The position numbers were made by a program, and so were the translations under genes. A DNA stretch of 30,562 nucleotides from assembly GCA_024278555.1 (NCBI GenBank), contig JAJRSX010000050.1, forward strand, positions 1-30,562, read 5' to 3'. The notes under the pieces are model-generated. The model saw only the letters and a list, made by a program, of their open reading frames with translations, had not been told where the DNA came from and ran no database searches. Origin of the DNA: a bacterium. Lineage in GTDB: Bacteria > CG2-30-53-67 > CG2-30-70-394. Shown piece by piece: positions 19,402 to 30,057 of this stretch (within the stretch, counting starts at the first letter, position 1; each line of letters opens with the position of its first letter).

Positions 19402-20949
19402 TCATGTAACCCTCCGGACCTTGAGGGTCACGCTCCCGTGGTTGTTGTCGTAGAAGTGCCACGCGTCGTTGGCGAAGCCATAGAGGTAGCCGGACCGCGC
19501 CGGGGTGTAGCTACAGCCCCCCTTGATCGGGATCACCTCGTGCAGCGCCGGGGTGCCGTCCGCCTTGGGGTTGCCGCCGTTGGCGACCACCCCCACGAGG
19601 GCAAACCACGGCAGCGCCTCGACCCGCTTGGTGCCGTGGAAGTCGGCCTGCTCGTTCTTCGAGATCCGCTTGAAGAGCTCCTCCACCTGCCCCCAGAGAG
19701 AGCCGGCGAGGTGGGCGAGCTCGCCGATCTTGAAGCGGCCGACGGTGGTGCCGTCGGGGCTGCACTTGATGGTCCGATCGATCCACTGGCCGGTGGCGGT
19801 GAATTCGTAGACCCCGCCCGCCTCCAGGTAGAGGCCGGTCTCATTCCACGGCTGCGCCGCGTAGATGGGAAGCTCCACCTCGTCGCCGGGCGCCAGCACC
19901 CGGGTCGGCCGGTAGGGCGCCTGGGCGATCGGCGGGTTCTCATGGCGGGCCACCGCCGCCGTGCTCACCGCGCCGTTGCCGGCGGCGATCGCCGGGCAGC
20001 TCCGTGGCTGGCTGCGCAACATCTTGAAGAGGCCGGTACGGGAGTCGTGCAGCACACCGCGGGGATCGGGGACAATCTGCTCCACCATCTTCGACTCGAA
20101 GCAGAGGCCGAGCGCCTCCGACTCCTCCACCATCCACAGGAGGGCACAGTCGGAGAGGTCGGTCTCCCGGTAGCCGCCGCCCACGTCCGCGTGGACCCCG
20201 GGGAACCACACCTGCTTCACGTCTCGCCCCGGCGCCACCTCGGTCCACAGGGTCGGGCTGAACGAGGCGCGCACCTCATCCAGCGCCACGGCGTGGCGGG
20301 CGTGGACCACGCCGTCACCCAGGTCGGTGGCGTGGAAGGCGTACTTCTCGGGGTCGTCGAGGAGGTTCAGGAGCCCCAGATCATCCGGGATCCCCAACGC
20401 CCCGACCGTGTCCCAGACGCCGATGAAGTGAATCGGGAAGTCCGTGCCCGGACCGCCACCATGGAAGCGCCAACCGCCGTCGGCCCACGCCGAGGCCGGC
20501 CGCCGCCTCCGATACCCCTGCTTGAAGGCGCGCTCCACCCGCTGCCACACCTCGCCGTCGTCGAGGCCGGCAAGGTCGAGGAGACCGCACCGGCCGATCA
20601 TCCCGGCCAGGGAGCGCACCGTGTAGGCGCCACGGGAGAAGCCGTAGAGAAAGAGGCGATCACCTCCGCCGTCGCCGTCGCCGTCGCGGTAGACCGCGCC
20701 GAGCCAGCGGTAGGCGCTGAGGATGTTGCGGATCAGACCGACCCCGGCGCTCCCCCCGGCGAGCCGCTCCCACCAGTTCCCCTCGCTCCCCACCCCCGGG
20801 TGGTAGTAGCGAAGCTGCGCCTCCCCCGCCCAATCTCCCTCCGCCACCGCGTTGTAGAGCCGGACCACGTTGGTGGGCACCAGCACCCCCTCCTCCCGCT
20901 GCTCCGGCGTATTCCACGTCCCATCACAACAGACCACCAGATTGCCCAT
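19402..20949 (-). CDS. DUF2235 alpha/beta hydrolase (Tle1-like phospholipase) with LecA-like C-terminal domain
   Basis: Residues 1-330 form a DUF2235 domain: VVCCDGTWN at the start, the nucleophile Ser105 in YGFSRGAY, and the later VWFPGVHADVGGGY motif. This domain is found in Tle1 phospholipase effectors of type VI secretion. Residues from about 350 (APGDEVELPIYAAQPW) to the end (YGFANDAWHFYDNNHGSVTLKV) look like a beta-sandwich similar to the galactose-binding LecA/PA-IL lectin, whose end reads YNDVPGTYGNNSGSFSVNI. A strong GGAGGAG precedes the ATG. No VgrG, PAAR or immunity gene is adjacent, and no signal peptide is visible, so a secreted-effector role is not supported by context. It could be a cytoplasmic lipase or esterase. 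Confidence 0.82.
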   Translation of the reverse strand: MGNLVVCCDGTWNTPEQREEGVLVPTNVVRLYNAVAEGDWAGEAQLRYYHPGVGSEGNWWERLAGGSAGVGLIRNILSAYRWLGAVYRDGDGDGGGDRLFLYGFSRGAYTVRSLAGMIGRCGLLDLAGLDDGEVWQRVERAFKQGYRRRRPASAWADGGWRFHGGGPGTDFPIHFIGVWDTVGALGIPDDLGLLNLLDDPEKYAFHATDLGDGVVHARHAVALDEVRASFSPTLWTEVAPGRDVKQVWFPGVHADVGGGYRETDLSDCALLWMVEESEALGLCFESKMVEQIVPDPRGVLHDSRTGLFKMLRSQPRSCPAIAAGNGAVSTAAVARHENPPIAQAPYRPTRVLAPGDEVELPIYAAQPWNETGLYLEAGGVYEFTATGQWIDRTIKCSPDGTTVGRFKIGELAHLAGSLWGQVEELFKRISKNEQADFHGTKRVEALPWFALVGVVANGGNPKADGTPALHEVIPIKGGCSYTPARSGYLYGFANDAWHFYDNNHGSVTLKVRRVT

Positions 20950-24766: not shown

Positions 24767-27049
24767 ATGAATAGCGAACGACCGAGTCGCGACGCCCTGC
24801 TGGAAGAGATCGCCGACCTGCGCGCGCGGCTCGCCGAGGCGGAGGCGGCAGTGGCACGGGGGGGCCGCGGCCACCTTGCCCTCCTGGCGGCGGTGGCCGC
24901 CGGCGACCGCCCCCTGACGGAGGTCCTCGACCACCTGGCACGGCTGATCGAGGCGGAACGGCCGGGGATGGCCTGCTCCATCCTCCTCTTCGACCCGGCG
25001 AACCAGTGTCTCCGCCACGGCGCCGCCCCCAGCCTCCCGGACGGCTACAACGCCCAGGTCGACGGCTTCCCGATCGGTCCGACCATGGGGTCGTGCGGCA
25101 CCGCCGCCTTTCGCCGCGAGCGGGTGGTGGTGGCGGAGATCGCCACCGACCCCCTGTGGGCCCCATTCAAGGAGGTCGCCGAGAGCTACGACCTCCGCGC
25201 CTGCTGGTCACAGCCGATCCTCTCCGCCGGTGGTGACCTCCTCGGAACCCTGGCGATGTACTACCGCGAGGTGCGCCGACCGGCCGCCACGGAGATCGAC
25301 TTGATCGAGACCGCCGCCCACGTCGTCGCCCTGGCGATCGAACGCCAGCGGACTGAGGCTGCCTTTCGCCACATGAACCGTGCCTTGCGCGCCTACAGCG
25401 GCTGCAACCGCGCCCTGGTCCGAGCGACCGATGAGGCCACCTTCCTCACCGAGATCTGCCGAGTTCTGGTGGTGGAGGCGGGCTATCGAATGGCGTGGGT
25501 GGGGCTGGCGCGTGACGATGAGCGGCGCACGGTGGAGCCCGTGGCCCAGGCGGGTGCCGAGGAGGGGTACCTGGCGGAGGCCGACGTCACCTGGGGCGAC
25601 GACCCGCATGGCCAGGGCCCATCGGGCAGCGCCGTCCGTGATCGCCGGCCGCAAGTCAACCAGGACATCCTCCACAACCCCGCTTTCGAGCCGTGGTGCG
25701 AGGCGGCGGTAGCGCGAGGTTACGCAGCCTCCATTGCCCTCCCCTTCGACGGCCAGGGCGACCACGCCCTCGGCTGCCTCAACGTCTATGCCGCCGAGCC
25801 CCACGCCTTCGACGAGGCGGAGGTAGCGCTGCTGACCGAGCTCGCCGAGGATGTCGCCCACGGCATTCGGACCCTCCGCGGTCGCCAGGAGCAACGCCGC
25901 CTCAAGGAGGAGCGTGCCGGTCTCGAACGGCAGCTCCGCCAGGCACAGAAGATGGAGGCGATCGGCACCCTGGCCGGCGGCATCGCCCACGACTTCAACA
26001 ACATCCTCCAGGCGATCTTCGGCTACGCCGACCTCGGCCGCAACACCCTGCCCGCGGACCACCCGAGCCGAACCTACCTCGACCACGTCCTCATCGGCGC
26101 CAAGCGCGCCCGTGACCTGGTGCGCCAGATACTCACCTTCAGCCGCCAGACCGAGAGCCACCGCCGGCCGTGTCGCCTCCAGCCGGTGGTGAAGGAGGCG
26201 TTGAAGCTCCTCGCCGCCACCCTGCCGGCGACCATCGAGGTCCACGCCCACATCGACCCCGACACCCCGGAGGTGGTCGCCGACCCGACCCAGCTCCACC
26301 AGGTGGTGATGAACCTCGCCACCAACGCCTACCACGCCATGCGCAAGGGGGGCGGCACCCTGGAGGTCTCCCTCGCCGGCCATCGCGAAGCGGAGGGTGA
26401 GGGGGAATCCGAGTGGCTCCGCCTGGTCGTCCGCGACACCGGCTGCGGCATGGACGAGGCGACCCGCGAGCGGATCTTCGACCCCTTCTTCACCACCAAG
26501 GAGGTGGGCGGGGGGACCGGCCTCGGGCTGGCGGTGGTCCACGGCATCGTCGCCGACCACCAGGGGCGCATCGAGGTCGAGAGCGAGGTCGGCAAGGGGA
26601 CCACGGTGCGGATCGACCTGCCGGCGGCGGAACAGGGAGCGCCGGCCGCGCCCCCCGACATCGCGGTGCCCCGGGGGGCGGGCCAACGGATCGTGGTCGT
26701 CGACGACACGGCGCCGGTCGCCGCCGTCCTCGGCGAGATCCTCACCGAGCTCGGCTACCGCCCCACCCTCTACACCGACCCACGCCGGGCGCTGGAGGCG
26801 ATCACCGCCAACCCGGCCGCCGTCGACCTGGTGATCACCGACCAGGTGATGCCGGCGATGAGCGGCACCGATCTGACCGCCGCCCTGGTCGCTGTCCGGC
26901 CCGACCTGCCGATCATCCTCCTCACCGGCTACGCCGATGAAGGCACGAGAGACAACACCGCCATCCGAAAACGCCTCACCAAGCCCATCTCCGGCCCCGA
27001 GCTGGCACGCACCCTCCAGCAACTCCTCTCCCCAGTCCAACCCGGTTAA
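24767..27049 (+). CDS. Soluble hybrid histidine kinase: GAF-GAF-HisKA-HATPase-REC
   Basis: The 760-aa protein lacks membrane segments. A short coiled coil (8-32) leads into two GAF sensor domains (about 40-195 and 210-370), a HisKA domain with His408 in [11 protein letters not shown] (the NtrB-like HDFNN type), and an HATPase domain with [15 protein letters not shown], and [12 protein letters not shown]-terminal receiver domain (about 640-755) has phosphoacceptor Asp692 in [12 protein letters not shown], acid pair DD, and Lys in TKPISG. The first GAF has the conserved GSCGTAAF motif common in two-component GAF domains. It is followed after 3 bp by a lone receiver, so a phosphorelay kinase-REC-REC is likely. 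The final output is not in the window. Confidence 0.93.
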
Positions 27050-27052
27050 CCC

Positions 27053-27418
27053 ATGGCCACGATCCTCGCGGTAGACGACGACCCCCAGGTGCGCGAGATG
27101 CTCGACACCCTCTTCACCGAGGCCGGTTACCAGGTGGTGACCGCGGCGGACGGCAAGGAGGCGATGGCGAACTTCCGCAAGCAGCCGGCGGAGGTGGTGG
27201 TGGCGGACATCCTGATGCCCGAGAAAGACGGCCTGGAGACGCTCCAGGAGCTCCACCAAATCGCCCCAGAGGTGCCGGTGATCGCCATCTCCGGCGGCGG
27301 CCACCTCCCCGGCAGCCACTACCTCAAGACCGCCACCCTCCTTGGGGCCTTCCGCGCCCTGGAAAAGCCCTTCCCCAATCGCGCCATCCTTACCGCGGTG
27401 GGCGAGGCCCTGGCGTAA
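27053..27418 (+). CDS. Single-domain response regulator (CheY-like)
   Basis: The 121-aa protein is one receiver domain: acidic pocket DDD (8-10), phosphoacceptor Asp52 in VVADILMPEKDG, Ser/Thr switch in AISGGG and Lys105 in LEKPF. There is no output domain, so it works as a phosphate shuttle or by protein contact. The start is 3 bases after the hybrid kinase stop, without its own strong ribosome-binding site, so it is coupled to the kinase and is its probable partner. A hairpin with T-run follows (27459-27494). Confidence 0.93.
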   Translation: MATILAVDDDPQVREMLDTLFTEAGYQVVTAADGKEAMANFRKQPAEVVVADILMPEKDGLETLQELHQIAPEVPVIAISGGGHLPGSHYLKTATLLGAFRALEKPFPNRAILTAVGEALA

Positions 27419-27494: not shown

Positions 27495-27576
27495 CGTCAC
27501 GGCCACGGAGAGTCGGTGGCGGCGATCACGTTGCTCCATGGGACTCACGGTCGGCGCGTGGCATCCTGCCGCCCCC

Positions 27577-30057
27577 ATGGCCCTGACACCGGTTCGTATC
27601 CCCGATGGCGTGCGCGCGACGATCGCCGGTGAGATCGCCGGCGCCGACGGGTGTGAGCTCTTCTTTGCCGCGACCACCGACGGCGACGGCGACATCGCCT
27701 CGGTGGAGCTCCTCGCCCGCGGCCACGCCACCGCGGTGCCGGCGATCACCCGTGACCTCCAGCCGGGCCAGGTGGTCCTCCACAACCACCCGTCGGGCAA
27801 CCTCACCCCATCCGACCCGGACATTTCGGTCGCCTCGATGCTCGGTGAGCGCGGCATCGGCTTTGTGATCGTCGACAACCAGGCGACCCGCGACCTCACC
27901 GTCACCCGCCCCCACCGGCCGCCGCCGGAGCGGCCGGTGGCGAACGGGTGGATCGACGCCCTGTTTGCCGCCGGCGGCCCCCTCGCCGCCCACTTCGACC
28001 ACTACGAGCCGCGCGCGCCGCAGGTGGCGATGGCGAAGGCGGCGGCGGAGGTGATCAACCAGGCGCGGCCGCGGCTGGTGGAGGCGGGGACCGGGACCGG
28101 CAAGTCCCTCGCCTACCTCGCCCCGGCGGCGCGCTGGGCGCAGCAAAACCAGAAGCGGGTGGTGATCGCCACCCACACCATCCACCTCCAGCAGCAGCTC
28201 ATCACCAAAGACATCCCCCTGCTCGCCGAGGCCCTGGACCGGCCGCTGAAGGCGATCCTGGTGAAGGGGCGGAGTAACTATCTCTGCCTGCGCAAGCTCG
28301 GCGAGGCCACGGCCCAGCTCGACCTTCTGGAGGAGGGGGAGGTGGCCGCCCTGGAGGCGATCGCCGCGTGGGCGAAGACGACCCGCGACGGCTCCCTCGC
28401 CGACCTCCCCGAGCCCCCACCGCACAGCGCGTGGGAGCGGGTCTGCTCCGACGCCGACGCCACCCTGCGCGCCCGCTGCCCCCACTTCGACCGCTGCTTC
28501 TTCTACCAGGCGCGCCGCCGCGCTGCCTCCGCCCACCTGTTGATCGCCAACCACGCCCTGCTCTCCGCCGACCTGGCGGTACGGCTGGCGAGCGGCGACG
28601 CCGAGTCCGCCGCGGTCCTGCCGCCGTACCACCGGGTGGTGATCGACGAGGCCCACCACCTCGAAGACAGCGCGGTGCGCCACCTCGGCACCCAGACGTC
28701 GCGCCTGGCGCTGCTGCGGGCCCTGGGCCGGCTACACCGCGCCAAGGGCGGGACCCTGCTCGCCCAGCTCGGCCGGGCGATCGCCAAGCTCCCCCCCTTC
28801 GAGGAGCAGGCAGAGCTCCGGAGCGAGGCGACGGAGCGGCTGCCGGCGCGGATCGACGAGGCGCGTGACCTGGCACGCGCCGCCTTCGACGAGCTCGACC
28901 GGCTGCTCCTCCCCGACCCCATCCTGTCGAGCTGCGACCTCGACGCCGACGCCACCGCCCACCTGCGCCCCGACACCGACCGCATCCTCAAGGAGCTCGC
29001 CGCCACCCTCACCGGCACCGCGCGCGAACTCCACCGGCTGCTCAAGCAGTGCACCGCCCTGCCCCCGACCCTCGCCGACGCCCTCGCCTCGCCGCTCACC
29101 GACTGCGCCGGCGGGGTGAACCGGTTGCAGCTCATCGCCGACGCCCTGCTTACCTGCACCGGGGCGCGGCCGGAGAACCGGGTCCGCTGGGTGGAACGGC
29201 GGCGCACCAACCTCGTCCTCTTCTCCCTCCCGGTGGAGCTGCGCGGCGAGCTCCACGAGGCCCTCTTTCGCCCCTACCCCGGGACGCTGCTGACCTCGGC
29301 GACCCTCTCCACCGGCAACGACTGCGCCTTCGTCGCCGACCGCCTCGGCCTCACCGAGGGGGAGCCGACCCCCCTCTCCCCCCTCGTCCTGCCGTCCCCA
29401 TTCGACTACCCGCACCAGCTCCGCTGTCTCTGCCCCACCGACCTCCCGGGGGTGAACGATGGCAAGTTCGACACCGCCGCCGCCGACCTCATCGGCCGCG
29501 TCGCCCGGCGCCACGGCGGCCGCACCCTGGTCCTCACCACGGCCTACCGCCAGGTGCGCTCCCTCGCCCTGGCCCTACGGGGTGAGCTGGCCCCGGAGAT
29601 CGCCGTCCTCGCCCAGGGAGAGGCGGACCGCCACCGGCTCCTCGAGCGGTTCCGCACCGACACCGGCCTTCTCCTCATCGCCACCGACTCCTTCTGGGAG
29701 GGGATCGACGTGGTCGGGCCGGCGCTCTCCGCGGTGGTGATCACCCGGCTGCCCTTCCGCGTCCCCGACGACCCCCTGGAGCTGGCGCGAACCGAGGCCC
29801 TGCGCGCCCGCGGCCGCCACCCCTTCGCCCACTACTCAGTCCCCATCGCCATCCTCAAGCTGCGCCAGGGGGTCGGCCGCCTCATCCGCTCGCGCACCGA
29901 TTCCGGCGAGGTGTGGATCCTCGACCACCGCCTGGTCCGCAAGCCGTACGGCGGCCGCTTCCGCAAGGCCCTGCCGGTGGAGGTCGAGGCGGGTGCGGCC
30001 GCACGGCTGCTGGCGCGGCTGGAGGAAGAATCAATCTCTCACCGTCCACGCGCCTGA
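27577..30057 (+). CDS. DinG-family Fe-S DNA helicase with N-terminal JAMM (RadC-like) domain
   Basis: The 826-aa protein joins two modules. Residues 1-115 form a JAMM/MPN-like domain with a perfect HxH-x7-S-x2-D metal motif (His69, His71, Ser79, Asp82 in LHNHPSGNLTPSDPD), closest to RadC; Glu27 or Glu44 may be the catalytic acid. Residues 140-826 are an XPD/DinG helicase: Walker A AGTGTGKS (170-177), four cysteines for a [4Fe-4S] cluster (237, 290, 301, 307), DEAH (357-360), then LTSATL, DSFWEGIDV and QGVGRLIRS in the C-terminal half. E. coli DinG has no such N-terminal domain; Firmicutes DinG carries an exonuclease there. An in-frame ATG at 27538 could add 13 residues. Neither start has a ribosome-binding site. 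Confidence 0.9.
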   Translation: MALTPVRIPDGVRATIAGEIAGADGCELFFAATTDGDGDIASVELLARGHATAVPAITRDLQPGQVVLHNHPSGNLTPSDPDISVASMLGERGIGFVIVDNQATRDLTVTRPHRPPPERPVANGWIDALFAAGGPLAAHFDHYEPRAPQVAMAKAAAEVINQARPRLVEAGTGTGKSLAYLAPAARWAQQNQKRVVIATHTIHLQQQLITKDIPLLAEALDRPLKAILVKGRSNYLCLRKLGEATAQLDLLEEGEVAALEAIAAWAKTTRDGSLADLPEPPPHSAWERVCSDADATLRARCPHFDRCFFYQARRRAASAHLLIANHALLSADLAVRLASGDAESAAVLPPYHRVVIDEAHHLEDSAVRHLGTQTSRLALLRALGRLHRAKGGTLLAQLGRAIAKLPPFEEQAELRSEATERLPARIDEARDLARAAFDELDRLLLPDPILSSCDLDADATAHLRPDTDRILKELAATLTGTARELHRLLKQCTALPPTLADALASPLTDCAGGVNRLQLIADALLTCTGARPENRVRWVERRRTNLVLFSLPVELRGELHEALFRPYPGTLLTSATLSTGNDCAFVADRLGLTEGEPTPLSPLVLPSPFDYPHQLRCLCPTDLPGVNDGKFDTAAADLIGRVARRHGGRTLVLTTAYRQVRSLALALRGELAPEIAVLAQGEADRHRLLERFRTDTGLLLIATDSFWEGIDVVGPALSAVVITRLPFRVPDDPLELARTEALRARGRHPFAHYSVPIAILKLRQGVGRLIRSRTDSGEVWILDHRLVRKPYGGRFRKALPVEVEAGAAARLLARLEEESISHRPRA

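Follow-up and report, generated by a model that had tools for sequence, protein, structure and literature searches.

The gene JAB-DinG, found in the window (the whole stretch of 30,562 nucleotides that was analysed), almost certainly encodes a fusion of a RadC-type JAB domain with a DinG/YoaA-type helicase. The protein is a member of the RadC-like DinG helicases from a small Nitrospirota-like lineage. In aligned sequences from about ten phyla, the active-site residues of JAB hardly vary, and the domain is almost always intact wherever it is present. Within Treponema and Fusobacteriales, however, the JAB domain was lost repeatedly.

The N-terminal domain carries the JAMM signature E-x(n)-H-x-H-x7-S-x2-D (Table 1). 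In a Pfam search with the whole protein, PF04002 matched residues 40-104 with 24.7 bits (cut-off 22.1), and the score was 30.6 bits with the JAB domain alone and 27.1 bits in the search of its own genome. The helicase domains are located C-terminal to the RadC domain (Helicase_C_2, 132 bits in Pfam). The best full-length family match was NCBIfam YoaA (NF053712, residues 141-814), whose score of 535.9 bits did not reach the equivalog cut-off of 680. JAB-DinG is the sole DinG/XPD-type helicase found in the source genome, being the single gene found with Helicase_C_2 in the family searches. The nearest relative (L001, 82% identical) belongs to a MAG named Nitrospirae bacterium CG2_30_70_394. The gene may start at 27538 or at 27577, as both start codons occur in L001.

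Table 1. Features of the JAB-DinG gene, in positions of the window
Feature	Position	Strand	Basis and remarks
JAB-DinG (RadC-like DinG) CDS	27538..30057	+	839 aa; alternative ATG start 27577
RadC-type JAB/MPN domain	27598..27912	+	about residues 21-125; Pfam PF04002, AF2 model, PDB fold matches
Glu40, putative catalytic residue of the JAMM motif	27655..27657	+	E in 60/60 aligned domains
Zinc-ligand motif HNHPSGNLTPSDPD (H82, H84, S92, D95)	27781..27822	+	predicted ligands; sequence and conservation
Walker A, EAGTGTGKS	28081..28107	+	sequence; T/G/K invariant in alignment A2
Fe-S ligand 1, Cys250	28285..28287	+	family alignment
Thr309 at the Fe-S ligand 2 position (Cys in most of the family)	28462..28464	+	alignment
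Fe-S ligands 3 and 4, Cys314 and Cys320	28477..28497	+	family alignment
DEAH box (motif II)	28645..28656	+	sequence; D and E invariant in alignment A2
Helicase_C_2, motor domain 2	29497..29976	+	Pfam PF13307

The original prediction had read an HxH-x7-S-x2-D motif in a RadC-like context at 27577-27930, joined to a DinG helicase. The motif lies inside this interval, which fits the domain closely, and the fusion is borne out by the Pfam score, the predicted fold and the homologues. Composition gives the bare motif an expectation of about 0.17 in the six frames of the window, so the motif alone is no proof and the identification is carried by family score, homology and fold. The possibility that the motif arose by chance, or that a G+C-rich ORF was misannotated, which this expectation would favour, is ruled out by the Pfam score over the cut-off, the confident fold and the co-linear homologues in many phyla; its probability is close to nil.

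The AlphaFold2 model of the JAB domain, with 60 homologous domains as input, reached a mean pLDDT of 93.8. The top match in VIA-align was PfJAMM1 (Pyrococcus JAMM1; Z 11.3, rmsd 2.4 Å, 102 residues), followed by BubCD, Caldiarchaeum Rpn11, CSN5, BRCC36 and others, and EMC subunits were also among the matches. RadC (2qlc) was the first match in Foldseek (E 2.3e-5) and was also found in a profile search of PDB sequences (E 1.8e-7), in which AfJAMM was non-significant (E ~0.3). The full-length model had a pLDDT of 88.4, and its best PDB match was E. coli DinG (6fwr, E 1.2e-39). The MPN fold and the catalytic Glu, for which structure prediction had been proposed as a check, were thus both present in the prediction.

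Across the 60 aligned JAB domains, which share a mean pairwise identity of 39%, Glu40, Asn83, His84, Gly87, Ser92 and Asp95 are invariant (60/60) and His82 is kept in 59; because a relaxed version of the motif served to select the rows of this alignment (A1), the counts for His84, Ser and Asp are partly circular, and Glu40 lies outside the selection. In a sample of 31 loci selected without use of a motif (the query locus and loci that similarity over the whole protein had drawn from 60 Fusobacteriales genomes; motifs counted by eye), the JAB motif was intact in 27, a pseudo-JAB was found in 2 and the domain was absent in 2. Between the window and L001, the dN/dS (NG86) was 0.43 for the JAB domain and 0.29 for the helicase, values that are crude at the G+C content of these genes. 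Both parts are under purifying selection, which is slightly weaker on the JAB domain.

The helicase had been described beforehand as a complete DinG Fe-S helicase. This description holds for Walker A, the DEAH box and motifs V/VI, which are all intact, but not for the second Fe-S cysteine, which is Thr309. The other three family cysteines (C250, C314 and C320 in window numbering) are kept. Thr at ligand 2 is also found in L001 and in two deltaproteobacterial proteins (L053 and L058), and Cys303 is no conserved substitute, with Ala at this position in L001. The lowest internal confidence of the full-length model falls on model residues 294-297 (307-310 of the protein), with pLDDT <50. Three Acidobacteriota proteins (L035, L036 and L043) lack the fourth Cys instead. 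In the 2025 review of this family, the presence of three or four cysteines in the Fe-S domain belongs to the definition of RadC-like DinG, H, S or D substitutions at these cysteines are reported, and three cysteines are supposed to be cluster-capable (PMC11981726); at the level of residues, the window protein has three. CasDinG, with a vestigial Fe-S domain, is a helicase nonetheless (PMC10450177). With one Fe-S cysteine gone, the motor itself may be atypical.

The original prediction had called for a survey of fusions across DinG proteins, and JAB-DinG was found in many phyla. The best 80 loci of the genome-contig collection include JAB-DinG proteins from Nitrospirota, Desulfuromonadales, Myxococcota, Planctomycetota (Brocadiaceae and others), Spirochaetota, Fusobacteriota, Acidobacteriota, Hydrogenedentota, Latescibacterota, Zixiibacteriota, Riflebacteria and Halobacteroidaceae, with organism names taken from the records, many of which are MAGs. 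Among 8 genomes of the window's own small phylum, the fusion was found in the genus of the window only, and the other family gave nothing but RadC-like matches in short frames.

In a tree of the helicase part, JAB-less Treponema proteins lie inside JAB-bearing clades at least twice (L065/L067/L070/L072/L076 and L075/L077), and L069 is probably a third loss in Treponema. A six-frame search of the JAB-less Treponema loci found no detached JAB motif. In the same Treponema group, L057 keeps the domain with RNHP for HNHP, in which the first His is changed to Arg. Full-length pseudo-JAB domains, with the Glu and both His replaced, are encoded in Fusobacterium vincentii (L097, 1480-3948) and a relative (L098), and are co-linear with JAB (hhalign probability 83%, E 8.5e-6). 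Since the helicase persisted each time that JAB disappeared or decayed, the domain is dispensable for the helicase motor. One further locus (L045) starts at a contig edge and was left out of the count of losses. Six JAB-less proteins of Chlamydiota (L054, L059, L063, L066, L071 and L080) may never have had the domain. As had been predicted, the JAB domain sits where ExoDinG carries its exonuclease: the related protein L079, whose tree position on a long branch was disregarded, has an ExoDinG-like, exonuclease-like N-terminus in place of JAB. DinGs with a pseudo-exonuclease (pExoDinG) have been described in the review (PMC11981726), and the pseudo-JAB is a comparable fate. Closely related helicases thus offer a natural test set, in which JAB is active, mutated at the first His, a pseudo-JAB or missing.

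Upstream of JAB-DinG, a GAF-histidine-kinase-receiver protein (24767-27049) and a response regulator (27053-27418) were identified by Pfam. The upstream genes differ in L001, and no flanking ORF matched between the window and L001. Across the loci, shared neighbours were common to single lineages only or belonged to ordinary gene families. A defence cassette was considered and rejected because no neighbours are conserved, even against L001; PADLOC matched the helicase part only (type IV DinG). Among those window genes that were scanned with Pfam, no csf-type gene of a type IV CRISPR-Cas locus was found. Elsewhere in the window, a protein encoded at 19402-20949 on the reverse strand strongly matches the PF09994 Tle1-like phospholipase catalytic domain (255 bits), whose family comprises type VI secretion effectors. 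A mobile or phage origin was rejected as well: tblastn of a phage collection gave no match to the JAB domain, and the plasmid matches listed covered the helicase part only, with the exception of Fusobacterium vincentii, whose L097 record has a length of 2.1 Mb but is classed as a plasmid.

DinG, YoaA and XPD are 5'-3' motors on single-stranded DNA and are active on forks, R-loops and D-loops. By analogy, the motor of the chromosomal RadC-like DinG would move 5'-3' on single-stranded DNA at stalled forks, R-loops or D-loops. Its JAB domain would bind zinc and cleave proteins encountered or displaced by the helicase, at a peptide bond or another amide bond, and this motor-coupled, DNA-associated metallopeptidase would work without a dedicated ubiquitin-like tag. 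We tentatively prefer this reading, in which a zinc metallopeptidase is attached to a chromosomal 5'-3' helicase and acts on the proteins met on DNA, and give it as a whole a probability of about 0.4. Clearing of protein adducts from DNA, which the original prediction had suggested, is a plausible hypothesis. A more specific proposal makes RadC-like DinG the bacterial equivalent of SPRTN-like, DNA-dependent metalloproteases: the helicase would deliver proteins that are crosslinked or tightly bound to its JAMM peptidase, no ubiquitin tag being required, and lineages losing or killing the JAB domain would have passed the task to another pathway; we consider it quite unlikely. Should JAB prove to be an active peptidase coupled to a DNA motor, bacteria would have a dedicated, tag-free route for clearing proteins from DNA, and the biochemical role of the RadC family would become approachable for the first time. 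The literature searched gave no report of an activity for the RadC JAB domain.

A mainly structural or regulatory JAB domain, used for docking, dimerisation or DNA handling near the helicase entry, with a minor role or none for catalysis, as many MPN-minus proteins show, would accommodate the full-length pseudo-JAB of F. vincentii and its relative as well as the Treponema protein without the first His. Non-catalytic MPN-fold subunits are common, and the EMC subunits among the VIA-align matches agree with this idea. We nevertheless find it rather doubtful, as in most lineages no residues of the domain are better conserved than the catalytic ones, which a pure scaffold would not need. The JAB domain might otherwise hydrolyse something else than DNA-bound protein, such as a bond linked to nucleic acid or whatever canonical RadC acts on, and the fusion would then bring RadC activity to the fork. 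By sequence, the domain is indeed nearer to RadC than to known peptidases, and in four spirochaete genomes (G019, G022, G042 and G046) the fused copy gives the sole RadC-family match. However, the fused copy usually occurs alongside a canonical RadC in the 40 family genomes, and the source genome also encodes RadC separately (C39), so replacement of canonical RadC was rejected as a general rule. These counts depend on a model that can miss weak fused copies: one genome (G015) gave zero matches at threshold even though it is the source of a fusion (L018). On balance, we think that this alternative is unlikely.

The removal of ubiquitin-like modifiers from DNA-bound proteins by a deubiquitinase-like enzyme, also part of the original prediction, would fit the fold matches to PfJAMM1, Rpn11, BRCC36 and BubCD. 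This explanation is not favoured, and we judge it very improbable. No neighbour gene is conserved across lineages, and a limited family search of the source genome found no dedicated ubiquitin-like system and no Prok-JAB protein. The same genome has a single ThiS, with an ORF just downstream that we take from its sequence to be ThiG-like; since this ThiS already ends in GGG, it needs no JAMM trimming. Two ThiF-family adenylyltransferases were found, of which one is MoeB/ThiF-like below the equivalog cut-offs and the other matches PRK08223. The search for E2 carries no weight, as no control gave a match.

The preferred reading, a helicase with an attached metallopeptidase, can be set against several known systems. 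PfJAMM1, Rpn11 and BRCC36 share with the window protein the MPN fold and the zinc-site residues, both predicted here, at 12-16% identity, but they act on ubiquitin-like conjugates, and no such system is evident in the source genome. RadC (PF04002, 2qlc) has the same JAB domain with the HNHPSG...S..D motif; unlike the window protein, it has no helicase. The ExoDinG of Firmicutes (S. aureus DinG, PDB 8zef) also carries an extra N-terminal enzyme domain on the same motor, which is a DEDD exonuclease in ExoDinG and a JAB metallohydrolase-type domain in the window protein. Compared with YoaA of the E. coli type, the window protein scores under the equivalog cut-off and has an extra JAB domain, and no HolC gene was found in the source genome by a family search in which the E. 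coli control was positive.

The closest known system is the RadC-like DinG subgroup defined by Cheng 2025 with Desulfuromonas soudanensis as an example (PMC11981726). According to that review, an E/H/H/D centre, Zn and the likeness to PfJAMM1 and CsRpn11 are features of this subgroup, no RadC-like DinG had been studied to date, and HolC is absent from organisms with RadC-like DinG (PMC11981726). A phrase search of one literature collection found no other papers using the name. HolC was not found in 21 of the 22 family genomes, in agreement with the review; the Desulfuromonas sp. genome of L002 does encode it (G009:C22:39749-40150, E 2e-30), so the statement is not general. This exception, the repeated JAB losses, the pseudo-JAB and the Thr-for-Cys variant were not seen stated in the parts of the review that were consulted. 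The window protein differs from the subgroup in having Thr at Fe-S ligand 2 and in coming from another lineage. It agrees in the N-terminal RadC-like domain and YoaA-like core with an Fe-S domain in one ORF, in the putative metal centre of E, H, H and D (Glu40, His82, His84 and Asp95), in the ATP and DNA-binding motifs of the helicase core, and in a genome where HolC was not found. The architecture is therefore not new but that of the named RadC-like DinG subgroup, which the window gene joins.
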